This document shows positions 13,706-26,868 of a stretch of 37,355 nucleotides of DNA, piece by piece. The stretch covers positions 1 to 37,355 of the IMG/VR virus record IMGVR_UViG_3300045996_001524; one strand, given 5' to 3'. The first letter of the stretch is position 1, and every line of letters starts with the position of its first letter. The notes under the pieces were generated by a model. The model had not been told where the DNA came from, ran no database searches, and saw nothing but the letters and a program-made list of their open reading frames with translations. This DNA comes from a virus. A program made the translations under genes and the position numbers.

Positions 13706-14398
13706 CTAGAACTTAATGCCGATGAGAAGCTTAAGCCGGCGTGGACTGAACGCGATCTTGAACGGGGTTGGGTTCTCGAACGGCGAAGTGTCAGTCTCCG
13801 GCACCACACGCACAAGCCGTCGAGTGGTACCAGTTCCTTCTTGCACCGGCGACGCGTCCATCTTGGACCCCATCTGCGCCTCCGTCAACGTGTGCTCGCT
13901 CGTCTCAAAGTCGCCCACAACCGTCCCAACGTTGCCGGCGCCGCCCATACCGAACAGCATTCCCTTAGCCGTCGAGTTGTCGATCAGCGGCAGCGTGAAA
14001 TTGTCGCCCGACTTGAACGTGCTAGGCAACACCGCGAACAGCGCAGGGTACGCCGTTCGCACCCGGATTGCTCCGTCAAACGGCAAGAACCCAGTCGGCA
14101 ACAACTGCCATATTCCGCCGATAACGGCGCCCGTCGGCAGCGCCGGCCGCGGCGACCAGACCGCCGTGCCCACCGGCCCTATCTTCGTGCATTCGTACAT
14201 GATGGAGCCGACCGTGTCCCAGCACGTCTGCCCGTACCAGGACCCCGCGATCGTTCCGTTCGGATCGCCCTCCGACGTCAGCCCGATCCGCGCCTCGAAC
14301 GTTTCCGTACCGGCTTTCAGGCCCGGCCCCCAAACGCTAGGCGCGTCACCCTCGGTGAACGTGCGCAGACCGGTCTTGGGAAGAATAGTCTGCGCCAT
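13706..14398 (-). CDS. Tail fibre protein with phage tail-collar domain, 230 aa
   Basis: The middle of the protein carries the phage tail collar signature: GAVIGGIWQLLPTGFLPFDG (residues 90-109), then YPALFAVLPSTFKSGDNFTLPLID. The C-terminal part ends in positive and hydrophobic residues. Collar domains occur in short fibres that attach to the host or to the tail. A longer open frame reaches to 14782 but reads as shadow sequence of the upstream genes. The ATG at 14398 overlaps the previous stop (ATGA) and starts a well-formed MAQTILPKTG N-terminus. It follows a 110-residue gene that resembles the N-terminal part of collar fibres, so the two may form one fibre. Confidence 0.8.
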   Translation of the reverse strand: MAQTILPKTGLRTFTEGDAPSVWGPGLKAGTETFEARIGLTSEGDPNGTIAGSWYGQTCWDTVGSIMYECTKIGPVGTAVWSPRPALPTGAVIGGIWQLLPTGFLPFDGAIRVRTAYPALFAVLPSTFKSGDNFTLPLIDNSTAKGMLFGMGGAGNVGTVVGDFETSEHTLTEAQMGSKMDASPVQEGTGTTRRLVRVVPETDTSPFENPTPFKIAFSPRRLKLLIGIKF

Positions 14399-14730
14399 CA
14401 GAGAACCTCCAACTTCCATGTCGGGACGAGCGAACCTTCCGCGGCGGTTGCCAGCGGCCCGAAGACCCAGCGGTCGAGCATCCTCCCGTCGCTGTCGAAT
14501 AGCCCGGCCTCGCCAACGATTTCGCCTGCGGTCAACGACACCGAGGTTAGAAACTGCACGGTAGCCCCGTCTGTTACAACGAGCGCGCCATTGCCCGTCG
14601 CTATCGTCGTGCCTTGGAGCGCCGTCTGTGTCGGCTCCGGCGCCACCGAACTGTCGCCAACCCGAACTTGCTCCGCGTTGAGCCCAGCTGCGATAACCTG
14701 TGCCACCCGCTGCTTGCCGATGTTGTTCAC
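14398..14730 (-). CDS. Small tail-collar fibre-like protein, 110 aa
   Basis: The segment EIVGEAGLFDSDGRMLDRWV resembles the conserved E-x-G-L-F-D-x-D-G-x-L region of phage tail-collar fibre N-terminal domains. The rest is beta-rich, with an N-terminal helix (GKQRVAQVIAAGLNAEQV). It lies directly upstream of the collar-domain gene and downstream of the large spike gene, so it probably helps mount or build the fibre. The GTG start has AAGGAG ten bases upstream. The stop overlaps the next start. The similarity is short, so the call is moderate. Confidence 0.6.
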   Translation of the reverse strand: MNNIGKQRVAQVIAAGLNAEQVRVGDSSVAPEPTQTALQGTTIATGNGALVVTDGATVQFLTSVSLTAGEIVGEAGLFDSDGRMLDRWVFGPLATAAEGSLVPTWKLEVL

Positions 14731-14732
14731 GG

Positions 14733-17700
14733 CTATTCCACTCCTTCCCCGCGGAACATCGCGTCGTAGGCGCGCGGCCCAACGTTCGTGGCCTTCACCC
14801 GCTTCGCGATCTTACTGTAGTCGGCATCCGGCACCCGCGTCGTAAAATCGTGCGCCCGACCTCCGTACACAGGAAACGGCGACTGTACCTGATAGTTACG
14901 GTCGGGTCGGCTCGGGTCGGCCGGCGCGATCCGGCAGTAGCTTGGCCCCATGTTGTTGTTGCGGTCGCCGAACGACTCGCTGCACCGCACCTGCATGTGG
15001 TTCCCGCCGATCAACGCCTTCCCGACAGACACGTAACGGTTGATCGGTCCATCCGGCATCGGTGATTCCGTCGGCCACCCTTCCCAATACAGCTTGGGAT
15101 TATCCGTCGTCGTCAAGTTCAGGTCAACCTCACCGTTTGCTTTCGGCGTGCTCGCTGTCGGATCGCCCGTTCCGTCGATGAAAAACGCGCCGCACTCCCG
15201 GATTTTGGAATACGCGTCCCGGATCGAGAAGCCTGACCGTGTGTTGTCGCCCGGCTTCATAATCCATAGACAGCGTCGGAAGTCGTGGCCCACGCCGTCT
15301 ACCGGGCTAACGTCTCCCAACGTCTTACGACCTTGACGCACCTTGATGTGCCGGTCGTCGCTAGTGCCCATCTCGACAGTGATGTCGCGCATGTCGATGT
15401 CGGAAAACTTCAGCTCGATCAGGTCGTCGCCTTTCCCCACCGAGTCGCGGTCCAGCCAGTGCTGGATCGTGACGCCAAGTCCGTAAATACCATCGTCAGG
15501 GTTCCGTCCGAACAACATCCCCTTCGTCTGCGTGTAGCCGCCCGAACCCGGTCCCCACTTGTCGGTTAACAGGTGCGATATCAGCCAGTCTTGCGAGCCG
15601 TTCGTCGGCGGGATAACCCCGGAACCTTTCGGTGACTTGCTCACCCCACGCTTGCCCTGCTGGCAATTCAGGAACGGAACTTGGATGCGACCACCGGCCG
15701 TCCGCGGACTGGCCTCGCAAAAGACGATCGCCAGATTGGTTATCGCCAACGATGGTTCTACCTTAATCCAGTAGGACTCAGCCGAGCTGCCTACCAGCCC
15801 GTAACCCCACAAACACTCCAGCTGCAGATGGTTGCTCGCGTCGATATGCAGTTCGCAGTTGTCGAACGCGATCCCACGCGGGTGCCCAAACCGTCCCCGG
15901 ACGATAACCTTGCCGTTCATGATCCGCCGGTACAGGGTTTTCTCGCCCACATCCCGATCGGACCGCCAGTACGCATGGGTGTTCGCCGCACCGTTCCCGC
16001 CCTGAAAGTTCAGCGTAACCGTCGATCCGTTCAGGTTAATATCCGCCGTCTGAACGAGGTGTTTCCCGGCACCGATACTGGCACCCTGCGTCCGCAGTTG
16101 CTCAAGCGTGGACACACCGATGTAGGCCGACTCGCCTGGGGACGGAACTGGGACCGCACGCTTCCATTTTTGGGCGCCGTAGCGCGGGAACGCCGCGTCA
16201 GGCGGCGGCGGTGGCTTTACGTCCTTCTTCTTCCGTAACACCGCCGGCGCCATAATAAACCGGTCCGCGTTCAGGCCCGTGTCCAAATCATCTCCGCCCC
16301 AGACCACATATTGCGCCCGCGTACCGACAACTTCCCCCTCGCTAACCACCTGCGACATCGACCCCGGAACAACATTCATCGACGCAAGATCCGTGGCCAC
16401 CTCCGGGTGAGTCCACTGGCTGCGCGAAACAATCTCCCACGGCCCGTAGAGTTGGTCCGCCAACGCCACAAAAAACCGTGACTCGGAGCCGCCGCCGAAC
16501 CCGACGATGTGAACCCACTTGTCCAGGTTCGGGTCGAAATACAGGGAGGAGCGCCAGTCCACCGCTACACCGTGGTCCAGGACAGGGCTCCGCGTGCTGG
16601 CCGTTCCCGGATACGCCGACCACGCAGGCGCCTCGGGCGTCCCCGTGAAAATTTGATGGTTCGCCTTGGTTAGCAGCTCGTTCGACCGCAAGCACCGCAC
16701 CAGATAAAACGGCCCGAGCTGGTGCGGCGAGTCGCCCGGCTGCTGCGGCTGCGGATTGAGCGTTTGCGGCATCCAATAAACATAACCGTCCGGTGCGTAC
16801 GCGAAGTTCTGCCCCGCCTGCCCAAACGCCGGATTGATAACGCCGTTCCACTCTTCGTTAACGCCGATGCCCCACGAGGCAACTTGCGCCGTCGCGCCCA
16901 GGGCCGACAACGCTAGCTTGCAAATCCGCTGCTTGTTCCACCCGCGGTTGCCGTCGTTCCCCCCAAACCAGAAATACAGATTTCCGTCGATCGCCACACA
17001 CGACGTGGTCTTGCCGTCCGCATACGGCCCATCCTCCGTCGGAAAGCCGGGGATCGGCGCCATGCCCCCTGCCACCGTCGGGCTCGGGCCGCCAACCAGG
17101 TACGTCAACCCACTGGCGCTTGCCGCCATCCCCGACGCGACCCCGGTAATCTGCGCGATGCCGATGCTGCGCCGGCCCGTGTTTGGTCCGTCCCCGAAAA
17201 ACGTTATGTGTCGCCCATCCTGCACATGCGCCACCGGCCACAGGTCCGCGCCAATTCCGCGTTCTGCCCGCTGCGCGAGGTCAAACGTGAACTCGTAGTC
17301 GGTCGGGATAACCGGCCCGTCGATCTCCTCGACCACCGGGATGCCGGCAACCGGCTCGACAAGCATCCCGCGGCCACGCCCTGACCGCCAGCCCGACTGC
17401 CCACCCCGCGGCGCTATCGTGCTGTCGGTCCACTCGACGCCAGCTGCGGTGGTCCCGGCCGGCGTAATCTTGATGTTCAACACCTCACCACGCCGCGTGA
17501 CCACCAACCGATACGTCGCGCTTGCACCCGACATCGGCGCCGACGGCGGGTCCGGATTCGGCGTCGGTCGCCGCGCTGTTCCTTCATCTATCGCGACGAA
17601 GCGAACCTCGTTCGCGTTGCCGGAGTCCGTCGACTCCGTGTCCATACTCGCCCGCCGGTAGAAGCCGAAGTCGCCGTAGATCGCGTCCGACACCGGGTTG

Positions 17701-18335
17701 TAGCCCGAACGCCGGTAATGCGAAGTTGTCCAGTCGGAGGGCTTGGCCGGGACGTTGCGGGTGCCAACCATCTCCAGGATGAACTGCCAGAACCGTCCAC
17801 CCGCATCAACCGCTGCGAGATCCTCGTTCTTCGTTATGTCCACGGTCAGGCGGAAGTTCTCCGGAAACGGCGTTTTCCACCACAAAGCGAAGTTGTGCGC
17901 GTCGTCGTTCGCCGCACCATCGACCTCGAACCCGCCACCCGGCACCCACGTCAGCCGCGAAAGTTGCGCGTTCTCCGGCGCATGGACGGCAAAGTTCCCC
18001 TCGACCAGGTCCCAAACGCCCACCGGCACAATCGCGCGCGGTCGCACACTGATGCTCCGCGCTTGCGCCTCCGGGTCGATCTTGCAAGCTATCGGGGTCT
18101 CCAACAGGATCATCCCGAACAGCCGTTGTGGCGGACGTGTTCCCGCCAGTAACTCGAACGCCTGCGGCACGCTTGTCTGGCCAGCTTCGAACAGCGCCGT
18201 TCCGCTCGGTAGCACCCCTCCCGCGAACAACGCTCCCGTGATCTGGTCAGCCCCCTCACCCACGATCCGCCACTTGACGGAGCACGGCACCGTAAGGTTA
18301 CCCGACCGTTCGACACTGAAGCTATAAAACGGCAT
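14733..18335 (-). CDS. Large tail spike: Calx-beta-like, lectin-like, propeller and beta-helix domains, 1200 aa
   Basis: Residues 1-85 resemble a Calx-beta domain (CSVKWRIVGEG...ITGALFAGGVLPSGTALFEAGQ) and are paralogous to part of the next upstream gene. Residues ~110-330 look like a concanavalin A-type lectin/glucanase sandwich. Residues ~370-660 show five-bladed propeller repeats like those of DUF4185/GH43-type proteins (HITFFGDGP, LYFWFGGNDG, FAYAPDGYVYWMP, SLYFDPNLDKWVHIVGFG, QYVVWGGDDLD). Residues ~750-1120 are probably a right-handed beta-helix. Such a combination fits a receptor-binding spike that binds or cleaves surface polysaccharide. The ATG at 18335 follows the upstream stop by 15 bases and has only a weak ribosome binding site. 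Domain limits are estimated by eye, and enzymatic activity is not shown. Confidence 0.7.
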   Translation of the reverse strand: MPFYSFSVERSGNLTVPCSVKWRIVGEGADQITGALFAGGVLPSGTALFEAGQTSVPQAFELLAGTRPPQRLFGMILLETPIACKIDPEAQARSISVRPRAIVPVGVWDLVEGNFAVHAPENAQLSRLTWVPGGGFEVDGAANDDAHNFALWWKTPFPENFRLTVDITKNEDLAAVDAGGRFWQFILEMVGTRNVPAKPSDWTTSHYRRSGYNPVSDAIYGDFGFYRRASMDTESTDSGNANEVRFVAIDEGTARRPTPNPDPPSAPMSGASATYRLVVTRRGEVLNIKITPAGTTAAGVEWTDSTIAPRGGQSGWRSGRGRGMLVEPVAGIPVVEEIDGPVIPTDYEFTFDLAQRAERGIGADLWPVAHVQDGRHITFFGDGPNTGRRSIGIAQITGVASGMAASASGLTYLVGGPSPTVAGGMAPIPGFPTEDGPYADGKTTSCVAIDGNLYFWFGGNDGNRGWNKQRICKLALSALGATAQVASWGIGVNEEWNGVINPAFGQAGQNFAYAPDGYVYWMPQTLNPQPQQPGDSPHQLGPFYLVRCLRSNELLTKANHQIFTGTPEAPAWSAYPGTASTRSPVLDHGVAVDWRSSLYFDPNLDKWVHIVGFGGGSESRFFVALADQLYGPWEIVSRSQWTHPEVATDLASMNVVPGSMSQVVSEGEVVGTRAQYVVWGGDDLDTGLNADRFIMAPAVLRKKKDVKPPPPPDAAFPRYGAQKWKRAVPVPSPGESAYIGVSTLEQLRTQGASIGAGKHLVQTADINLNGSTVTLNFQGGNGAANTHAYWRSDRDVGEKTLYRRIMNGKVIVRGRFGHPRGIAFDNCELHIDASNHLQLECLWGYGLVGSSAESYWIKVEPSLAITNLAIVFCEASPRTAGGRIQVPFLNCQQGKRGVSKSPKGSGVIPPTNGSQDWLISHLLTDKWGPGSGGYTQTKGMLFGRNPDDGIYGLGVTIQHWLDRDSVGKGDDLIELKFSDIDMRDITVEMGTSDDRHIKVRQGRKTLGDVSPVDGVGHDFRRCLWIMKPGDNTRSGFSIRDAYSKIRECGAFFIDGTGDPTASTPKANGEVDLNLTTTDNPKLYWEGWPTESPMPDGPINRYVSVGKALIGGNHMQVRCSESFGDRNNNMGPSYCRIAPADPSRPDRNYQVQSPFPVYGGRAHDFTTRVPDADYSKIAKRVKATNVGPRAYDAMFRGEGVE

Positions 18336-18350
18336 CGTTAGGTTCCCAGC

Positions 18351-19868
18351 TCACGGAGGATAGAGGTTGCTCGGTACGATCACACGGAGACGTGCCGCCG
18401 TGATCAGACCGTCCAGCAAACTCTCGGGATACGGCTTACCGCCGACTGTTCGCGACTGCATCCCCAGCGCCGTCCAGTCCCCCGAGTTGTAATCCTCGAA
18501 CTGAAAGTGCGCCACGGCACCGGCATGGTCCGAGATGAACCACCCGTAGTCCCGCAACGCCTGCGCGATAATCCGCGCCGTGCTTATGGCCGCGATCCCC
18601 AAGCCGCCGGGAAGCGTTGCGACCCAAGCGTCAAGCTCGCCATTGGTCATCGACAGGTAGAAGCGAGTACCACTCGGGATACCAGGGTTGGAGACGGTGC
18701 CAGACCCGTCGGTTTTCTGTGCGGGCGCAACGAACGGCACGGGCGCCGTCGGCGCGGACTCCGCTCGCGTCGGCATACCAAGTGCGTGCAGGATCGCGCC
18801 CGACGCAACTTCCTTGGCGCGAACCAGAAACGCCAAGTTTTGTATCCCGCAACCCCGCGCGCCAATGTCGCCGGGCACCGGCGCCGTCTTCGTCCGATAG
18901 TCACCCGCAATCTGGTTGGCCGAGCCAACTTGCAGTTTGCCCCCCACCAGCGACACCTGCCACAGGTCAAGCTCGGCTCCGGTATCCGTGTCCAGGATAA
19001 TCAGCCAGTTGTCCTCGGCTTGCGAGCCCGCCCAAAAACCACCGCTCGGGCGCCAATCCGGGTGCCACGGAACCAGCGTGCCCTCCGCAACGTTGCCCCA
19101 CGTCGGATGGCCGTGATCCGTGAAGCTAACCCGGATGGTAGTGCTCGCAGCCGGCTTTCCGCCCGCGCCGTTCTTCTCATACACCGAGTAAGTGTATCGC
19201 GTGAAGGTGCAGTTGAAGTCACCGGGCGTCACAGAACCCGTGTTGTAAAGACGGGTGCTTAGCGTAGCCGAGTTGGCGTCCTGCGCCAAACCCGCAACGG
19301 GCCGGTTCCACGGCGCATCGTCACCGAAAGCACGCACAAAGCCCGTGTCCGTCTCCGGGTCCAGCTCCGTAAACGGCACAAGCAGCGCAACAATTGCGTC
19401 ACCCGGAATCACAACCTCCTCGAGCACCCGGAGGTCGATCTCCTCGTTTTCCTCGTCGATGACGCAACCAATCGGGTCGAACGCCTCTACCACGCCAGTG
19501 AGCGGTGCCACTGGCGGATCGCCGGGCGAAAGCGTGATCGTCTGCGGGATGATCTGGTCGCCGCCGCGCTCCCACGACAACGTGCCAGTCGGGTAGGCCC
19601 CGCCCGGAACGCCACCGAGAAAATGCTCCGGCAGAACCGGGTTGCTCCCGCTCGGCAGCACTCGCCACGACACCGAGCAAGCAACACCCTGCGACCCGTA
19701 GCGCCGCAGCTCGAACTCGCCCACGGTCGGTTCGGTGGGCGAACGCCGCAGCTCTCGCAGAGCCCTGCCGTAAATCGCGAGCCGCGGCTGCCCCCCACCC
19801 GGCGGGCGCAAGGTCCACTCCGCCCCCCGGTTCCGTCCCCACGTAGGCTCAAGCCTGACTAGTGTCAC
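18351..19868 (-). CDS. Tail fibre/adhesin with Calx-beta-like domain, 505 aa
   Basis: Residues ~48-125 (FELRRYGSQGVACSVSWRVL...HFLGGVPGGAYPTGTLSWERG) match the N-terminus of the 1200-residue spike and look like a Calx-beta domain. The C-terminal half (LDLWQVSLVGGKLQVG, GCGIQNLAFLVRAKEVASGA, ILHALGMPT, PSGTRFYLS, ALRDYGWFISD) resembles a domain I associate with secreted bacterial, often carbohydrate-related, proteins; its activity is unknown to me. Together they suggest a surface-binding fibre component. The GTG start has GAGG nine bases upstream, two bases before the end of the previous gene's spacing. Whether it is on the same fibre as its neighbours is inference. Confidence 0.6.
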   Translation of the reverse strand: MTLVRLEPTWGRNRGAEWTLRPPGGGQPRLAIYGRALRELRRSPTEPTVGEFELRRYGSQGVACSVSWRVLPSGSNPVLPEHFLGGVPGGAYPTGTLSWERGGDQIIPQTITLSPGDPPVAPLTGVVEAFDPIGCVIDEENEEIDLRVLEEVVIPGDAIVALLVPFTELDPETDTGFVRAFGDDAPWNRPVAGLAQDANSATLSTRLYNTGSVTPGDFNCTFTRYTYSVYEKNGAGGKPAASTTIRVSFTDHGHPTWGNVAEGTLVPWHPDWRPSGGFWAGSQAEDNWLIILDTDTGAELDLWQVSLVGGKLQVGSANQIAGDYRTKTAPVPGDIGARGCGIQNLAFLVRAKEVASGAILHALGMPTRAESAPTAPVPFVAPAQKTDGSGTVSNPGIPSGTRFYLSMTNGELDAWVATLPGGLGIAAISTARIIAQALRDYGWFISDHAGAVAHFQFEDYNSGDWTALGMQSRTVGGKPYPESLLDGLITAARLRVIVPSNLYPP

Positions 19869-19871
19869 TGG

Positions 19872-21524
19872 TCAGTACCTCGCCATAAACACACGGAGCC
19901 CGTCGTTCCGTATCTGGAGCAGTGCACCCTGTCCCGGCTCCAACACCCGGTCGACCGCCGCAGGCCGAATGTTGTCGTCGCCGCCACCCCCGGTGCTCTC
20001 CACAATCGGCTTGCTCACCATCGCGATGATAGCTCGCGGCGTGTTACGGCCGACTACCCCGGTGTACGCTTGGGACGCCGCCGGTCTGTCGTCGTGCGCC
20101 TGTCGCGCGTATGCGAAGTCTTTTTGCGTCCGCGCGCCCGTAGACGCCAGCCGCAAGTTTGTGCCTGGCGTGAGCCCCAAACCTTCGGTGGCCCCGCCCT
20201 GGAAGAGCGCAAGCACGTCGACGGCAGCGCCCGCCGTTGCCGGTTCAACCGTCGCGGCAACCGACCCGCTGGTTGCGTTGTCAACGGCCAGCACCGTTAC
20301 GTCCTCGAACCCGTCGCAGTTATTCCGGACTACCACGTCGCAGTAGTACGCCGCCCAGCCAGCCTGGATCGGAAACTGGAACGTCAGGCTGGCTTCCCCC
20401 GTTCCGCTGATGTCCCCGGTCCAGGCCCGAATGTGTAGCGGGTCGGCGGAGGTTGGACCCCCACCTCCGTCTGTTCCGCGGTCGACCACGTTCGCCGTCC
20501 CGGCTGGCGCCGTGAAGCTCGGCGCGGTCGTCGGCGTTACGTGATACACCACGGCGATGCGCGCCTGAAACTTCCGGTTAGACCCCGCCGGGATCGGGTT
20601 GCCCGCGCCGGTCGTGAACGGAACGAGCACCGTCGTCGCGGGTTGCGCAGTGTTCGTGTTCTTGGCCGTTGCGGAGCTTTCCGCAATCCGCGTTGGCTTG
20701 AGTGTAACCGATCCCGACGAGGAGGGGTTCCCGGTTCCCTCAATGGTCACCTGGTTGCCGGCCACCATGTCGTTATAAACGTCGATGTAGGCGTAGCGGC
20801 CGTCCTTGCCCGGCGCACTCGGCTGGGTATAAAGGGAAGGTGGGATTTTGTATTTCGCGTCCCGGTTCGTTCCCGCTCGCACAAACCGGACCTTGTTGTT
20901 CAGGTGTGCGGCGACAGCCGTGAAAAGCTGCTCGGCCCCGTTCGCGCCCTCCTCACCCGTGTGGTCGCCGATGGTTACCTCGTCGACGGCCGGCGCGTCG
21001 CTCAGCAACGCCTCTTGCTTGGCCAGCAAGCCTTCGGCCGACAGCTGCCCAGGTCGCCACTCGTTCCCTGGCGGCAACGTTATCATCTTGTCGACCAGCT
21101 CGACTTTCTCCGTTGCGAGCGTCGCCGACCCCTGCGCCTGCACTCGCGCCGCGTCGACTTCGGTGGCCGTCGTGCTAACCTCGGCCGCCCTGATCTCGAC
21201 CTCCAGCTGGGCCGCCTGGACGGTAGCCAGCGCCGCCTGTAACTGCTCCTCCGTGACGCTGCCGCCAAACGTACCGAGGTTAGTCAGCAAGCCCCAGTTG
21301 TCGGGCTGGAATTCAACCTGCGCGACGTGGGTAACGAGACACAGCATCAACAGCCGCGTGTCGTTGCCGACATACGTCACCATATCGCGCACGTTGTAGA
21401 GCGACCCGGCCTGCCAGTCCCCGCGGTACCGCGCCAGGACGGACTCAGCCGGCCCCGGCGACGAGAAGTTCTCCGCAACAATAACCGGCTCTTCCGAGGG
21501 AACATCGCGCCAGTTACCGCCCAT
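19872..21524 (-). CDS. Tail fibre protein with CBM5/12-like and coiled-coil segments, 550 aa
   Basis: Residues ~30-80 follow the pattern of chitin-binding type 3 (CBM5/12) modules: RYRGDWQAGSLYNVRDMV, then a Cys, an H-x-A-Q-x-E-F-x-P segment and NWGLL. A heptad-rich stretch (~90-150, QLQAALATVQAAQLEVEIRA) is a likely trimeric coiled coil. The remaining ~350 residues are beta-rich with a Gly-rich linker near the end. This is the first fibre gene after the head-tail adaptor, the usual place for the fibre that attaches to the tail. The open frame extends to 22151, but those extra residues are shadow sequence over the adaptor gene. I chose the ATG at 21524, which has GGGAGG six bases upstream. 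Confidence 0.65.
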   Translation of the reverse strand: MGGNWRDVPSEEPVIVAENFSSPGPAESVLARYRGDWQAGSLYNVRDMVTYVGNDTRLLMLCLVTHVAQVEFQPDNWGLLTNLGTFGGSVTEEQLQAALATVQAAQLEVEIRAAEVSTTATEVDAARVQAQGSATLATEKVELVDKMITLPPGNEWRPGQLSAEGLLAKQEALLSDAPAVDEVTIGDHTGEEGANGAEQLFTAVAAHLNNKVRFVRAGTNRDAKYKIPPSLYTQPSAPGKDGRYAYIDVYNDMVAGNQVTIEGTGNPSSSGSVTLKPTRIAESSATAKNTNTAQPATTVLVPFTTGAGNPIPAGSNRKFQARIAVVYHVTPTTAPSFTAPAGTANVVDRGTDGGGGPTSADPLHIRAWTGDISGTGEASLTFQFPIQAGWAAYYCDVVVRNNCDGFEDVTVLAVDNATSGSVAATVEPATAGAAVDVLALFQGGATEGLGLTPGTNLRLASTGARTQKDFAYARQAHDDRPAASQAYTGVVGRNTPRAIIAMVSKPIVESTGGGGDDNIRPAAVDRVLEPGQGALLQIRNDGLRVFMARY

Positions 21525-22164
21525 ACCCGTCCTCCCACATGCCGAGCACGAGGTCCAGCCCGGCCTGCTGCTTTCGATCGTTGTCTTCGACAAGTGCGGC
21601 GTAGGCGTCCTGTGCGATACCGACGTATGGCTGCACAACGTCGGGCGCCAGCCGCAAGTACGCCGCGAGGTACTGCATGGACTTCGCCTCGACGAAATCC
21701 AGGCCGTGGTCAAACAACCAGTGGAAGTCGCCCGGCCCCATCGTCCCCGTATACGAGAAATAGAAAAACTCGAAGGTCGCGTCGGTATCGGGTATCCCCG
21801 AGAACCAAAGCCACTGTACACCGTCGATCCAGTACGCCGCCGGATCGCCCAGCTTGACAGCCGCCAAGTCCTCCGGCTCAACCCGCCGCACGTAGCGGTA
21901 CTTGGCAACGCCGGTTGTCTCGACGCCCTTGAGCCGCAGTGCCCGCGGCTCCTTGTAGTTCGGCGGCAGATCATACGGGCCAGCCCGCGTGCTGCCCGCC
22001 AGGATGTCGCGTTGCATAACCCGCGCCATCCACTCGAACGAGTGGCGCTTCTCGAGCCAGGAAATCGACTTGAGGATCGCCGCGTCGATCCGGGGAATGG
22101 GAGTCTGTGGCCGGTCGGTTTCGGCCAGCACAGACTCCCGCACTTCGGCAAAAGATGTCGGCAC
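21514..22164 (-). CDS. Head-tail adaptor-like protein, 216 aa
   Basis: It lies directly after the major capsid gene, the usual place for the connector that joins portal and tail. Its helical N-terminal half (RIDAAILKSISWLEKRHSFEWMARVMQRD) and the W-F-x-G-containing middle fit SU10-type or gp11-type adaptors, which are about 200 residues. The open frame runs to 22500, but the extra part is shadow sequence over the capsid gene. The best start is GTG at 22164, with GGGGGA eight bases upstream; there is no ATG or GTG between it and the capsid stop. Its end overlaps the start of the first fibre gene by 11 bases. Confidence 0.65.
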   Translation of the reverse strand: MPTSFAEVRESVLAETDRPQTPIPRIDAAILKSISWLEKRHSFEWMARVMQRDILAGSTRAGPYDLPPNYKEPRALRLKGVETTGVAKYRYVRRVEPEDLAAVKLGDPAAYWIDGVQWLWFSGIPDTDATFEFFYFSYTGTMGPGDFHWLFDHGLDFVEAKSMQYLAAYLRLAPDVVQPYVGIAQDAYAALVEDNDRKQQAGLDLVLGMWEDGYGR

Positions 22165-22214: not shown

Positions 22215-23423
22215 TTAGGCTTCCGCCGCCGCCGAGGTCAAGCCGAAGATCGCGTAGTGCGTCTTCGCGTGTCCCATCGCGATCCCGCACTCCGTGATGT
22301 ACCCGTTCTTCTTTGCGTCCGCGCCGATCTCCTGCAGGTCCGTCTGGTACTTCGTGTCCCGGCCTCGCAGGTACCGGTACTTGATCTGGTCCATGTCGAG
22401 CGCCACGATCGCCGCGTCCATGGCCGCGTAGGTCCCGACGACGGACCCCATCAGGTTGAACATCGGATGGGTCTTGAGCACGAGCGTCCCGAACGGGCAC
22501 ATGAACCGCGTGACGTTCATGCCGTATTCTTTCTCACCCGACGTGATGTTGTAGTTCACGCCGCCGGTCTTCCGCACGAGCTGTTGCATGGTCAACAGCG
22601 CCCGGTTGCCGCAGAAGCCCATCTTCTCGTTGGACCCGTACTGGAACATCTTGTACAGGTCTTCCTCGAAGGCGCCCATCGTGACCGCCGCCGAGTACGT
22701 GTGCTTGTTGCCCGAGGGGATGCCCTGGAGCACACCGCCGGTTGTCCGCAGCGGCTTGCCGTTCCGGGTGCCCAGGGAGCGAACACCGAACCAGAACGCC
22801 TTCTCCATCCCGAACGAGTGCTTCTCCAAGGCCTCCCGCTTCTGCTCCTTCCACTCGTCGCCGGTCCGGACCTCCGTCTGCGCCGCAGTCCCCGTGATCT
22901 CATGCGTGTCGCGGAAAATCTGCGTGTAGTTGTACGCCTCCGTCGGATCGAACGCGATGCCGACCGGTGCCAGCGAACCTTCCTCGTAGCACGATCCGAT
23001 GTGCGTTGCGAACGGGTTGACCGAACCGATGGTCAGCGCTGTCTTGGTCGTGCCCGCAAACCCGCGCGTGACCGTCAGCCCGGTGTCCGCAGTCGGGTCC
23101 GCGCTAACGACCACGATTTCGTTCGTATGCTCGATGAGCAGGATGTCGCCGAGCTTGAACGCCAGCGCTCCGGAGGTGAGCACCAGCGACGTGGTCACGT
23201 CCGTGTTGTTCAGCGACGTGGTGATCTGGACCCGGTAGGTCTGCTGGCCCTTCTCGAACCAGTGGAAATGCGGGTCCGTTGTCTCCTGTTCCTTCATCAG
23301 CGTGGTCAGGGCCGTCAGCGGCGCCTGCCCGTTGATGTAAAGCAGCGAGATGTTCTGCCGCCACGACTCCGGCCGAGCATTCGCGATCCAGTTGGCAGTT
23401 GTCCGAAGGCCCTGAATAGCCAC
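22215..23423 (-). CDS. Major capsid protein, SU10 type (DUF5309)
   Basis: The 402-residue protein carries the typical stretch NYTQIFRDTHEITGTAAQTE (about residues 165-184) and the following EWKEQKREALEKHSFGMEKAFWFG of the SU10/DUF5309 capsid family, an HK97-fold group of podovirus and related phages. The C-terminal half, with MGFCGNRALLTMQQ and KTHPMFNLMG, also fits. It forms the head shell around the scaffold encoded just upstream. It starts at GTG (GTG GCT ATT CAG), with AAAGGA eight bases upstream, although capsid genes usually use ATG. The identity is secure in kind; the family name rests on recall of the motif. Confidence 0.85.
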   Translation of the reverse strand: MAIQGLRTTANWIANARPESWRQNISLLYINGQAPLTALTTLMKEQETTDPHFHWFEKGQQTYRVQITTSLNNTDVTTSLVLTSGALAFKLGDILLIEHTNEIVVVSADPTADTGLTVTRGFAGTTKTALTIGSVNPFATHIGSCYEEGSLAPVGIAFDPTEAYNYTQIFRDTHEITGTAAQTEVRTGDEWKEQKREALEKHSFGMEKAFWFGVRSLGTRNGKPLRTTGGVLQGIPSGNKHTYSAAVTMGAFEEDLYKMFQYGSNEKMGFCGNRALLTMQQLVRKTGGVNYNITSGEKEYGMNVTRFMCPFGTLVLKTHPMFNLMGSVVGTYAAMDAAIVALDMDQIKYRYLRGRDTKYQTDLQEIGADAKKNGYITECGIAMGHAKTHYAIFGLTSAAAEA

Positions 23424-23467
23424 TTCCGTCTTCCTTTCACACGACTGCGGCGCGCCCTATGCGCCCG

Positions 23468-24526
23468 CTACCACCGCGCAGCGTTAAAGAAGCCCTGTAT
23501 CGCCTCAGGCGAGTTAGGGTCGAGAGGACGCCCGGTCGGCTGAAGGCCAGCCGGCCGAGCCCCGTTCCCCGAGTAGGCCGCGGGAGCCGTCGCCGACGCG
23601 GTCACCGGTGCGTGCTGAGTCCCGCCGGCCCCGGCGAACCCGTGGATGAGGGTGCGCACCCGGTTCGCAATCTCATCCCGCACCTGCGGCGTGTACCCCC
23701 GGAACTGCGGGCCAAGCTCCCGAAACAGCGCCGAGGCCACCTGCTGCACAACTGGCCGCAGCGTCGGGTGATCCAGATCCTTGTGCGTCCCGTAGAAGTC
23801 CTGCTGGTACGAGGACGCGGCCTGCGCCCCCTGCTGCTGATACTGGATGGAACCGGCGAGCTGCGGTCCCCACTCGTGCTGAAACCTGTTCGCGACCTCC
23901 TGCGCCACCGTCTGGTGGACCGTCTCCGCCAGGCTGTTCGCCATGACCTCGAAGGCTTGCTGCGCCTTCAGCGGGTCCTCGTCCCGCATCGCCTCCAGAA
24001 GCTGCGGCGGCATCCGCAACTCGTACCGACGGGGTTGCTGCTGCGGAGCCTGCGGAGCCGGCTGCTGCTGCTGGCTCTCCCGCGCAGCAACGTGCGCCTG
24101 GAGCGCCGCGATCTGCGCCTGAAGCTGCGCGACCTGCGGGTCGACCGCGGTCGGCTGCTGCGCGGCCCTCGGCGGCTCTGGCGGCTGCTGGAGCGGCTTC
24201 GGAGCCGCCGGCGCAGGCGTCGGCGTTTGCGCCTGCTCCGAGCCGGTCCCGGCTGGCTTTTGCCCCGGCGCGGGCTTTTGCCCCGGCGCCGTCTCGACCG
24301 GCTCGATGCCCTTGGTCTGTCGGTCCCAATCCGCCCAGATGTCCGCGTCGACATCCGGCAACTTGGGCGAGCTGGGCGCGATGGACGCCGGGTTGTTCGC
24401 GGCTGCTGCCGGCGAGGGCATCGACGCGGGCGGGGGCGCTCCGCTGCTGTCCGGGTTTGCGCCCCCGCTGGGCGGCCCACCGTCGTCCGGTGCGAGCGCC
24501 CGCTGCCACCAATTCCGCACGAACAT
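23468..24526 (-). CDS. Scaffolding protein, 352 aa
   Basis: It lies between the portal and the major capsid genes, the standard scaffold position. The first ~170 residues are rich in Pro, Ala and Gln and probably disordered; they include a short tandem repeat APGQKPAPGQKPAG. A Gln-rich helix around PQVAQLQAQIAALQAHVAARE follows, and the C-terminal half is helical and charged (PQLLEAMRDEDPLKAQQAFE). This composition is usual for scaffolds, which help the capsid protein assemble around the portal and leave or are cut before packaging. No protease motif is visible. Confidence 0.75.
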   Translation of the reverse strand: MFVRNWWQRALAPDDGGPPSGGANPDSSGAPPPASMPSPAAAANNPASIAPSSPKLPDVDADIWADWDRQTKGIEPVETAPGQKPAPGQKPAGTGSEQAQTPTPAPAAPKPLQQPPEPPRAAQQPTAVDPQVAQLQAQIAALQAHVAARESQQQQPAPQAPQQQPRRYELRMPPQLLEAMRDEDPLKAQQAFEVMANSLAETVHQTVAQEVANRFQHEWGPQLAGSIQYQQQGAQAASSYQQDFYGTHKDLDHPTLRPVVQQVASALFRELGPQFRGYTPQVRDEIANRVRTLIHGFAGAGGTQHAPVTASATAPAAYSGNGARPAGLQPTGRPLDPNSPEAIQGFFNAARW

Positions 24527-24527
24527 C

Positions 24528-24875
24528 CTAGGTCTCCTCGGTTAGGTCGTGGACAATGTCCAGCGCCAGATACAAACCTGCCAGCTTACCCTGCATCTGG
24601 ATTGCAGCCAACCGCCCACCCTCCGTCGTCAGGTTCGTCTTAATGATCTCCTGCTCCAAGGCGCGGCCCCGCTCGAGCAACTCGCCGAACAACCGGCTTG
24701 CGCTGTCAGTGCTCAGAACGGACCGTAGCCATGCCCGATCGTTCTCGTTCCACTCGCCAGACTGCTCGGCCGACGCGATGAAGGCGGCCCATTCCTCGGA
24801 CGTCATGGAAAGGTTGCCCAGCACAACCCGGTGCGACCGGGAACCTCCGAGGTGCTCATGCCCCCGCCCCTCCAT
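24528..24875 (-). CDS. Small helical protein between portal and scaffold, up to 115 aa
   Basis: The clear part of the protein starts at MTSEEWAAFIASAEQSGEW and is a helical, acidic sequence that ends GRLAAIQMQGKLAGLYLALDIVHDL. I do not recognise the family, although small helical genes between portal and scaffold are common in this kind of phage. The frame opens at ATG 24875, overlapping the portal stop by 20 bases, but has no ribosome binding site there. An in-frame ATG at 24806 (92 residues) gives the cleaner protein, so the true start is uncertain. It probably contributes to head assembly, by position only. Confidence 0.55.
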   Translation of the reverse strand: MEGRGHEHLGGSRSHRVVLGNLSMTSEEWAAFIASAEQSGEWNENDRAWLRSVLSTDSASRLFGELLERGRALEQEIIKTNLTTEGGRLAAIQMQGKLAGLYLALDIVHDLTEET

Positions 24876-26868
24876 TCAGCCGTCGCCGCGGCTCCGCCGG
24901 CACACTCTGTCCCATGAGCTGTGAGCCCATGCCCTGGGGAGGCATCCCCGGCATCGCACCTGGCATAGCTCCTGTCGGAACCGCGTTCCCACTCTGCCCG
25001 AGCGCCGTTGCAACCTGATCCGGAACAACCTGGATCTTGAAACCCTCGACGTTGTACGCGCCTCCGAGTTCAGCAACGAAGTCAAAGATCCGTGGTACAT
25101 CGTACACCGTCCGCAGCTGCATGTCCTGCAGGATAATACCGAACAGTTCCCGCCACAGGTCGAACATGGCCGTCTTGTCGACCGGCAGCGTCCCGTCGTG
25201 GATCGGGAAGTAGAAGTCGCCCGCGATATCCCCCGGTTTGACCATGATCGGGGAGCTCAGCCACCGGTCGCCGATCGACTGGATTGCGAACTCGTGCTCG
25301 AGGAACTGCTGGTTGTCCAGCGACATCTGCTGGGCAAGGTCTACCATTCCTTGTCCGGAAATAAGTTTAGCCGTCGCAGCCAAGCGAGAGGCACCGCTAT
25401 CCGCCGACACTCGAACTTCCGTAGCACTCTTGCGCCCGCCACCGCTTTGAATTGCACGAAGGTTATCACCCACTCCGGAGAGGCTATCCGCGAGTCTTGT
25501 GACGATGTCCATGTCACCCAAATGCCCTCGGGTGACGTCCATGACGCTGAGCTGGGAGACGGCTTGTCCAACGTCCGTTCCATAGGCGCTTTTCTTCAGC
25601 CGGATGAGGCGGCCGCCCGTCGGCTTCCTCTTCAGGTCCTGCATTTCGACACGGGAAGGGTCCACGACCAGCATGTTGCTGACCGCGTTCCGCACGTTCT
25701 CCATGTGCGAGTTGAACAGCCAACCGAGCAGGTCCTGGAACGGTGCACCGTAGTCCGTCATGCTCGGCTGGCCGAAGCCGTAACCCATCGTGTGCGGCTC
25801 GGCCACGCAAACCGGGTGCATGTCGTGGTCGTGGTCGAACGGCGTCAACCGGATGATCTGGCCGAGGTTCGCCACGGTGACCAGAAACTTGCGGGGCGCA
25901 TTTGGGCTACCCGTGTCGCCGACTAAACCCGCGAGCCCAAACTCGCTCGGGATCAGCTCGAACGTGCCCTCGTCCACTTGGATGTAGTCGCCGATGTTGC
26001 CCATACCGGGCTCACGCAGCCGGCCCTCCTCGGCTCCCGGAAACGGGTCGCCGCCGCTGATGGCACTGCGCGCGCTGCTCAACCCGTCGGAGACCTCGCG
26101 GCGCGGCAGCGTCTTCGGGATCGCGTCAACGTGGACGTAGATGCCCTCGGAGGCACCCCGCTTCAGCTCGTGCCTGCCGTTGTACGACCGCCACGCCACC
26201 CACTCGCCGCGCTTGTTAACCTCGGTCATCGGCACGCGCGGGTCCGGCAGGAACATATACGGGTCGATCGTCCCGATCTCGGAGCCCTGATAAACCGTAC
26301 GCAGTTCGCGCGCCTTGTACTCCGTCTCCGGGGTGAGCGCAGCGAGCCCAACGTTCGGGCTACCGGGCTTTATCACCGTGCGCATCCGCTTGATCGTCTT
26401 GAACTCGGGCCGCAGGATACCGACGCCATATAGGCCGCAGTCGTTCAGAAACTGGTAGACCTGTTTGACAAAGCGGCTGTGGTCCGCATTGTACTGGAGG
26501 ACGATCTCCATCGTCTGGGCCGCATTGACCCGTTCGCCCTGGTTGGACCGGACGGGAAAGTGCGGCACCCGCCCCGTAAACGTGTGCAGCCAGTAGGTGA
26601 CCGCGGTCGCAAGCGTCGCATACGTGTGCGGGATAACGATGTTGACGAGCTGCGGCTGCCCCTTCGCGTCCGACTGGTCCTTGAGGAGCTGCTCATAGTC
26701 CGACAGCTGGATGTAGGCTTGCACCCGACGCTCATTCGCGGTCCAGCGCGAGTGAAACTTCCGCATCCGCTCCTCGGAAAACCGGATGCGCTCCTTGAAG
26801 TGCTCCAGCAACCGCCCGTGCGTGTCGGAGTCTGGCCGCAACAGGTCGACGGTGTCTTGCGCAGCCAT
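24856..26868 (-). CDS. Portal protein, 670 aa
   Basis: Size, composition and position mark this as the portal, the dodecameric ring at the capsid vertex through which DNA is packed. Typical features are a helical start (DTVDLLRPDSDTHGRLLEHF), an aromatic-rich region (YWLHTFTGRVPHFP) and LNDCGLYGVGILRPEF in the first third. Further on come the stem/clip region and long helices such as KSATEVRVSADSGASRLAAT, then a Met/Pro/Gly-rich tail that is probably flexible. The open frame reaches 27093, but that extension is shadow sequence over the Gly/Pro-rich gene. The ATG at 26868 begins a sensible MAAQDTVDLL N-terminus one base after the previous stop codon. Confidence 0.85.
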   Translation of the reverse strand: MAAQDTVDLLRPDSDTHGRLLEHFKERIRFSEERMRKFHSRWTANERRVQAYIQLSDYEQLLKDQSDAKGQPQLVNIVIPHTYATLATAVTYWLHTFTGRVPHFPVRSNQGERVNAAQTMEIVLQYNADHSRFVKQVYQFLNDCGLYGVGILRPEFKTIKRMRTVIKPGSPNVGLAALTPETEYKARELRTVYQGSEIGTIDPYMFLPDPRVPMTEVNKRGEWVAWRSYNGRHELKRGASEGIYVHVDAIPKTLPRREVSDGLSSARSAISGGDPFPGAEEGRLREPGMGNIGDYIQVDEGTFELIPSEFGLAGLVGDTGSPNAPRKFLVTVANLGQIIRLTPFDHDHDMHPVCVAEPHTMGYGFGQPSMTDYGAPFQDLLGWLFNSHMENVRNAVSNMLVVDPSRVEMQDLKRKPTGGRLIRLKKSAYGTDVGQAVSQLSVMDVTRGHLGDMDIVTRLADSLSGVGDNLRAIQSGGGRKSATEVRVSADSGASRLAATAKLISGQGMVDLAQQMSLDNQQFLEHEFAIQSIGDRWLSSPIMVKPGDIAGDFYFPIHDGTLPVDKTAMFDLWRELFGIILQDMQLRTVYDVPRIFDFVAELGGAYNVEGFKIQVVPDQVATALGQSGNAVPTGAMPGAMPGMPPQGMGSQLMGQSVPAEPRRRLNGGAGA

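Follow-up and report, generated by a model that had tools for sequence, protein, structure and literature searches.

A divergent Calx-beta-like domain shared by two adjacent tail-locus genes of a virus and its possible role as a docking head

The tailspikes of phage CBA120 and, by model, the tail fibre proteins of phage RaK2 have homologous N-terminal head domains, and a branched complex is assembled by such conserved N-terminal domains (PMC10253068). In podophages such as G7C and, again by model, KP32, the spikes are attached by a T4gp10-like dock together with a conserved peptide (PMC6872550). Here, we compare with these systems two neighbouring genes, referred to as A and B, of an uncultured bacterial virus (IMG/VR virus record IMGVR_UViG_3300045996_001524). 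The whole of this single record, 37,355 bases in length, was analysed and is called the window. Judged from their sequences, A and B look like otherwise dissimilar tail-locus proteins that carry a non-calcium variant of the Calx-beta domain at or near their N-termini. Calx-beta is known mainly as a calcium sensor and as a surface repeat.

The similarity between the two domains is confined to about 100 residues and is highly significant. Residues 6-104 of A align with residues 52-155 of B in BLASTP with 34/104 identical and 50/104 similar positions (55 bits, E 7e-12); the Smith-Waterman score of the pair is 141, whereas the maximum in 1000 shuffles of A was 80, i.e., 0/1000 were as good. The two halves of the domain also reach significance when taken separately (87 vs. 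a maximum of 44, and 67 vs. a maximum of 48, with 0/2000 shuffles as good for each). Behind the domain, the score of A 106-345 against B 159-505 was matched by 781/2000 shuffles, and other A-B segments in the whole-protein BLASTP had E 0.44 or worse. When 15 window proteins were compared all against all, A and B formed the sole pair below 1e-3, the next being D110/g9083 with E 0.004. At the DNA level, the two genes show no meaningful similarity (best blastn E 0.044), and thus the split between the domains is old. The initial annotation had located both open reading frames (ORFs) and their strand correctly (Table 1) and had noticed the shared segment; the similarity stands, while its extent is longer than was quoted. 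The motif spacing that had been described as identical is indeed equal from CSVxW to FxGG, but the PxGT of B follows four residues later than that of A (VLPSGT in A vs. VPGGAYPTGT in B).

The mutual score of 141 is also higher than that of either domain with any of 67 gathered Calx-beta domains (at most 122 for A and at most 85 for B), and in a tree of Calx-beta domains A and B form one branch with a support of 100/99. This tree, with 113 columns and 63 distinct rows of 69, contained the domains scoring above 25 bits with a bacterial profile (see below) plus A and B; the branches of A and B are long, the bootstrap was unsettled and the letter make-up of B is odd, and the tree was used solely for A and B standing together. 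Common descent of the two domains is supported by these comparisons, and it is in this sense that the suggested duplication in adjacent genes holds, each domain being the best match of the other. The domain may have been copied inside this genome or may have arrived twice.

Pfam Calx-beta (PF03160) matched neither the whole proteins nor the excised domains at E up to 10, and none was found among the window proteins by family search; the excised domains also had no Pfam, PHROG or meaningful NCBIfam match. In a tblastn search of plasmids, domain A retrieved 28 records at E up to 10, many of which are annotated as Calx-beta or immunoglobulin-like (Ig-like). The best of them is an annotated Azospirillum Calx-beta protein (46% identity over 50 of 100 residues, E 2e-3), the only record with E <0.01, as the rest are at E 0.1 or worse. 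The nearest annotated bacterial relatives of domain A are long repeat-bearing proteins of Azospirillum and Niveispirillum, and two repeats of the Calx-beta proteins retrieved with A exceed the Pfam Calx-beta cut-off of 27 bits, with scores of 41 and 51. With the domains alone as queries, the phages yielded six matching records for A and a single one for B, all at E 1 or worse. No Calx-beta was found among PDB sequences with a two-sequence profile of A and B; the same search with eight bacterial repeats added does find Calx-beta, a result that belongs to the repeats and was not counted.

Two profiles were compared with the domains. The bacterial profile, composed of eight repeats with A and B excluded, though taken from an alignment in which both were present, gave E 1.6e-9 for A and E 0.021 for B among six-frame ORFs of the window and the fetched loci. 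Set against shuffles, its scores were 33.9 bits for A (maximum 7.3) and 10.6 bits for B (maximum 6.4), with 0/1000 as good for each, any score at all being reported for 509 (A) and 656 (B) of the 1000 shuffles; the match lies mainly in the first half of the domain. As a less circular control, a profile was made from 44 distinct viral Calx-beta domains that had been found with a bacterial repeat and not with A. With this profile, A scored 9.6 bits and was first of the 15 window proteins, and its shuffles reached at most 2.6 (0/1000 as good).

Predicted structures point in the same direction for A. The AlphaFold2 model of its domain, made from the A and B sequences alone, has a predicted local distance difference test score (pLDDT) of 61 and a predicted template modelling score (pTM) of 0.55, and in its PDB comparison the first 20 rows consist entirely of Calx-beta domains, from NCX, Calx or integrin beta4 (Z 5.0-6.2). 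The viral structure library contained no match to the model at E 0.001 or better; its rank 2 (E 0.056) is a protein of Serratia phage Parlo named CalX-like. In the model of domain B, which is unreliable, the strands come in similar order, and nothing was built on it; nor was its empty PDB list counted against the fold, the model being unreliable. Taken together, the annotated relative, the profiles and the fold searches support domain A as a relative of Calx-beta. Domain B, whose own profile evidence is weak, may be placed in Calx-beta mainly through its homology to A, so that the Calx-beta-like label given initially to both domains stands for A directly and for B mainly by way of A.

Several positions set A and B apart from other members of the family. 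A and B were aligned with Calx-beta domains taken from plasmids, viral contigs and one phage record (61 distinct ones besides A and B), and the acidic positions of xADF and ExDExF, which we take to be the calcium site, are replaced in both. The D of xADF, acidic in 61/61 others, is L in A and H in B; the two E of ExDExF, acidic in 54/61 and 52/61 others, are P and L in A and V and L in B; and the D/N between them, acidic in 43/61, is R in A and P in B. The last acidic position (acidic in 32/36 filled rows) is G in A and D in B. Some Calx-beta members do without acidic calcium-site residues. Among the others with a residue at the position concerned, the cysteine of CSVxW occurs in 0/57 and a second cysteine in 3/59, and both are present in A and B; a disulphide between the two may be considered. 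The first residue of A corresponds approximately to Pfam position 21 of 119, provided that the first ten positions are free of gaps; A would thus be without the start (about the first 20 Pfam positions) of a canonical Calx-beta domain, the part that holds the first strand. The reading frame of A opens just 15 bases 5' of the ATG, and the domain begins five residues after the protein start, whereas 51 residues precede the domain of B. What A and B have in common with PF03160 and the Azospirillum repeats are the F-x-V-x-R-x-G, SV-x-W, F-x-GG, PSGT and G-E/Q-T-S positions, which are clearest in A, and the predicted fold of A. Unlike those repeats, they are missed by the Pfam model, have lost the acids, have the cysteine pair and occur as a single copy per protein.

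A scan of viral contigs with one bacterial repeat yielded 42 loci, and a scan with a W-type Calx-beta pattern yielded three more viral loci, namely L052 (a 961-amino-acid ORF with one Calx-beta domain), L053 (an ORF at a contig end) and L054 (repeats split over several ORFs). From these, 44 Calx-carrying viral ORFs were examined, i.e., one for each of the 42 loci plus L052 and L053, with L054 and a further locus, L005, left out; the counts are of contigs, several of which are nearly identical. Pfam Calx-beta was matched by 43/44, baseplate hub/tail lysozyme families by 26/44 and a tail fibre family by 9/44, and thus, judged from family matches, Calx-beta does occur in tail proteins of phages. 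The single GDSL-esterase match among the 44 is taken to be the L052 ORF. In these contigs, Calx-beta lies inside a hub/lysozyme of the T4 gp5 type (for example L023:8504-11356, residues 499-580, and L042:8396-12157, residues 535-618). In a Cylindrospermopsis virus, the bacterial repeat profile gives 37.7 bits for an ORF labelled 'phage tail protein' (L005:3494-4294), for which Pfam has only a weak minor-tail match. The T4-like baseplate hub/tail lysozymes of viral contigs thus resemble A and B in being tail proteins with Calx-beta, but there the domain is mid-protein and recognised by Pfam; going by the sequences compared, the features that set A and B apart are the N-terminal position, the occurrence in two genes next to each other and the loss of acidic residues. 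No two neighbouring genes of the A/B kind were found in the fetched stretches of L052, L053 and L054, and a pattern scan for the A/B domain pair gave 34 stretches in viral contigs and 58 in genome contigs, none of which was confirmed.

Two neighbouring proteins that differ in their bodies but have the same domain at the N-terminus (A) or close to it (B) fit the logic of branched tailspikes best, so the explanation we prefer, with a probability of about one half, is that this domain is a shared structural head docking two receptor-binding proteins on the tail or on each other. Genes B and A, which come after a third gene, C, in a packed run, would encode two receptor-binding proteins, and each protein would carry at (A) or near (B) its N-terminus one beta-sandwich of the Calx-beta type without calcium-type acidic residues. 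This domain would serve as the structural head by which each protein is docked on the tail or on its partner, and docking would let two dissimilar distal bodies be displayed together. We infer that A and B are receptor-binding proteins of the virion, and likewise the docking role and the docking target. The common mount or A-B contact that had been proposed for the domain is consistent with its position and with the published tailspike precedents. A more specific version, which seems improbable, is that the calcium-free Calx-beta variant acts as an assembly module of tailspikes, the strand missing from the A domain being supplied by B, which keeps 51 residues before its copy, or by C (donor-strand complementation), whereby two spikes would be locked in one complex. 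The cysteine pair, seen together in A and B alone among the aligned domains, would perhaps help to lock the spikes.

As in A and B, whose spike status is presumed, the co-encoded TSP1-4 of CBA120 and tail fibre proteins of RaK2 combine homologous N-terminal head domains (D1/D2) with different bodies; the heads there are reported to comprise a helix and a six-stranded beta-sandwich (in the RaK2 models). The podophages G7C, K1-5 and KP32 have two receptor-binding genes that share one attachment, as is presumed for A and B, but they use the T4gp10-like dock and short conserved peptides instead of the same domain in both proteins. Sequence profiles of Pfam and PHROG found no T4 gp10-like domain in A, B or C. 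In the literature judged by titles and the beginnings of abstracts, a scope outside which most subscription journals lay, no Calx-beta domain was described as a tailspike mount, and the available part of PMC12309495 makes no mention of Calx.

A number of results weigh against a Calx-beta docking head. The model of domain A is modest, its Z scores lie below 8, and rank 21 of the PDB comparison is an unrelated tyrosinase with Z 5.0; plain Foldseek likewise has Calx-beta in its top 18 rows, which are chains of fewer entries, but the best E is 0.08. The model of domain B (pLDDT 39.8) is too poor to use and had no structural match. The eight-repeat profile is partly circular, as the proteins of its repeats were retrieved by domain A itself. 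With the viral profile, B scores 1.6 bits, which is not significant (5/1000 shuffles as good), and therefore A is supported independently and the placement of B depends on A; when L010 and L011 are omitted from this profile, A falls to 4.6 bits (0/1000 as good, maximum 3.7) and B to -1.4 bits (26/1000). Domain B alone retrieved no Calx-beta protein, and its search of plasmids gave three records with E 4 or worse. The labels 'tail gene' and 'spike' reflect gene position and size, and no family match puts the two proteins in the virion. Searches of phages, plasmids and viral contigs gave no relative of A or B as a whole that would show the pair to be conserved. Finally, Calx-beta lies mid-protein in the hub proteins inspected, and the bacterial copies are repeats in long proteins, which makes a spacer role natural as well.

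Indeed, the main rival explanation, less probable than docking though still worth serious attention, is that the domain works passively, as a spacer or stiffener that was captured along with other bacterial modules, and that its sharing by A and B reflects easy recombination of neighbouring genes rather than a common site of docking. Calx-beta and Ig-like repeats play such a part in bacterial surface proteins, the Azospirillum and Niveispirillum relatives named above are proteins of this kind, and the other domain of B is bacterial too. The domains that are over-represented in phage proteins with recent mosaicism include an N-terminal Ig-like one (PMC10684548). However, A begins with its domain, so that no preceding part exists from which it could be spaced, and derived features common to A and B (the cysteine pair and the lost acids) would not result from two separate captures of bacterial repeats.

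The docking head has further competitors, all of them with little probability. The domain might bind host polysaccharide weakly and thus provide an extra adhesive surface on A and B; carbohydrate contacts have been proposed for Ig-like domains of phages, but spike N-terminal domains normally face the virion, and no sugar-binding family matched domain A or B, which makes this doubtful. That it is a working calcium-sensing domain, which would stiffen or switch the spike with calcium, is suggested by the Calx-beta relationship as such and is nonetheless very hard to accept, because acids kept in 52 to 61 of 61 others are replaced in A and B, although the last position, G in A, is D in B. Least credible of all is a chance resemblance or a generic beta-sandwich pattern. 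Such a view could draw on the silence of Pfam, PHROG and NCBIfam (no meaningful match in the last) for both domains, on the failure of the two-sequence profile to find Calx-beta among PDB sequences and on the non-significance of B with the viral profile; as regards the A-B similarity, chance is excluded by the BLASTP E value, the shuffles and the significance of both halves, and as regards Calx-beta it is opposed by the profile and fold evidence on A.

Table 1. Genes and domains of the C-B-A run, with positions in the window
Feature	Position	Strand	Description and basis
Gene A	14733..18335	minus	1200 amino acids, presumed tailspike; Calx-beta-like head and about 1100 residues without family match; ORF list
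Gene B	18351..19868	minus	505 amino acids; a short piece at the N-terminus, then the Calx-beta-like domain and a bacterial domain of extracellular type; ORF list
Gene C	19872..21452	minus	presumed fibre, start not settled; upstream in the same gene run; candidate anchor
Calx-beta-like domain of A	18024..18320	minus	residues 6-104; BLASTP to B, tblastn, profiles, AlphaFold2 model, PDB fold searches
Calx-beta-like domain of B	19404..19715	minus	residues 52-155; BLASTP to A, weak match to bacterial-repeat profile
C-terminal domain of B	18354..19352	minus	approx. residues 173-505; relatives in Indioceanicola, Methylocaldum, Chitinivibrionales and two viral contigs

The three genes form a tightly packed run in the order C, B, A, with gaps of 3 bases from C to B and 15 bases from B to A, and they are flanked by the gene for the major capsid protein (phrog_1328, E 3e-34) on one side and a virion structural protein gene (phrog_3287, E 4e-33) on the other. 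Whole A and B have no meaningful match in Pfam, PHROG or NCBIfam; gene C has a weak CBM5/12-like match in Pfam (E 0.038, below the cut-off). The run is adjoined by a gene with a collar domain (Pfam Collar, E 1.8e-5; 13706-14401), which overlaps the end of a 110-amino-acid ORF (14398-14730) located directly downstream of A; this small protein is probably a separate short fibre. By its portal, the closest named phage is Kuura, a phage of Caulobacter, with 40% identity in the portal (24859-26865) and 43% in the major capsid protein (22218-23423). Since tblastn at E 0.01 detected no counterpart of A, B and C in Kuura, despite the similar portal and capsid, the receptor-binding locus seems to have been exchanged relative to this phage. 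An alphaproteobacterial host may be suspected, as both recognisable modules have Azospirillaceae relatives and the portal is nearest to that of Kuura.

The remaining parts of the two proteins have different affinities. The part of B from approx. residue 173 onwards matches a plasmid sequence of Indioceanicola profundi with 41.6% identity over 96% of the query (E 6e-64), and the stretch concerned (L055) contains two ORFs with this C-terminal domain (19914-21761 and 23019-24269), one of which has RTX repeats. Further relatives are found in Methylocaldum (two on one contig), in a metagenome-assembled genome of Chitinivibrionales and on two viral contigs, one with a 659-amino-acid ORF (28% identity) and the other with a fragment where the contig ends. 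The domain is thus a family without a Pfam match that is common to bacterial proteins and viral contigs (L055 and L056-L060), and no Calx-beta domain scoring above 8 bits occurs in the stretches L056-L060. With the exception of a weak partial match to Microcystis phage Mae-JY09 (E 0.09), B has relatives via its C-terminal domain only, and none to the whole protein was found in viral contigs. The approx. 1100 residues of A behind its domain have no match in the databases searched; whole A has no relative in phages or viral contigs, and residues 106-1200 have none in plasmids.

If tailspikes are to be exchanged, the mount has to remain constant while the receptor-binding body is replaced. If the docking head proposed here for A and B is correct, a shared head domain would be a sequence handle by which multi-spike systems may be sought beyond the phages in which they have been worked out, and Calx-beta would join the folds used for phage assembly.

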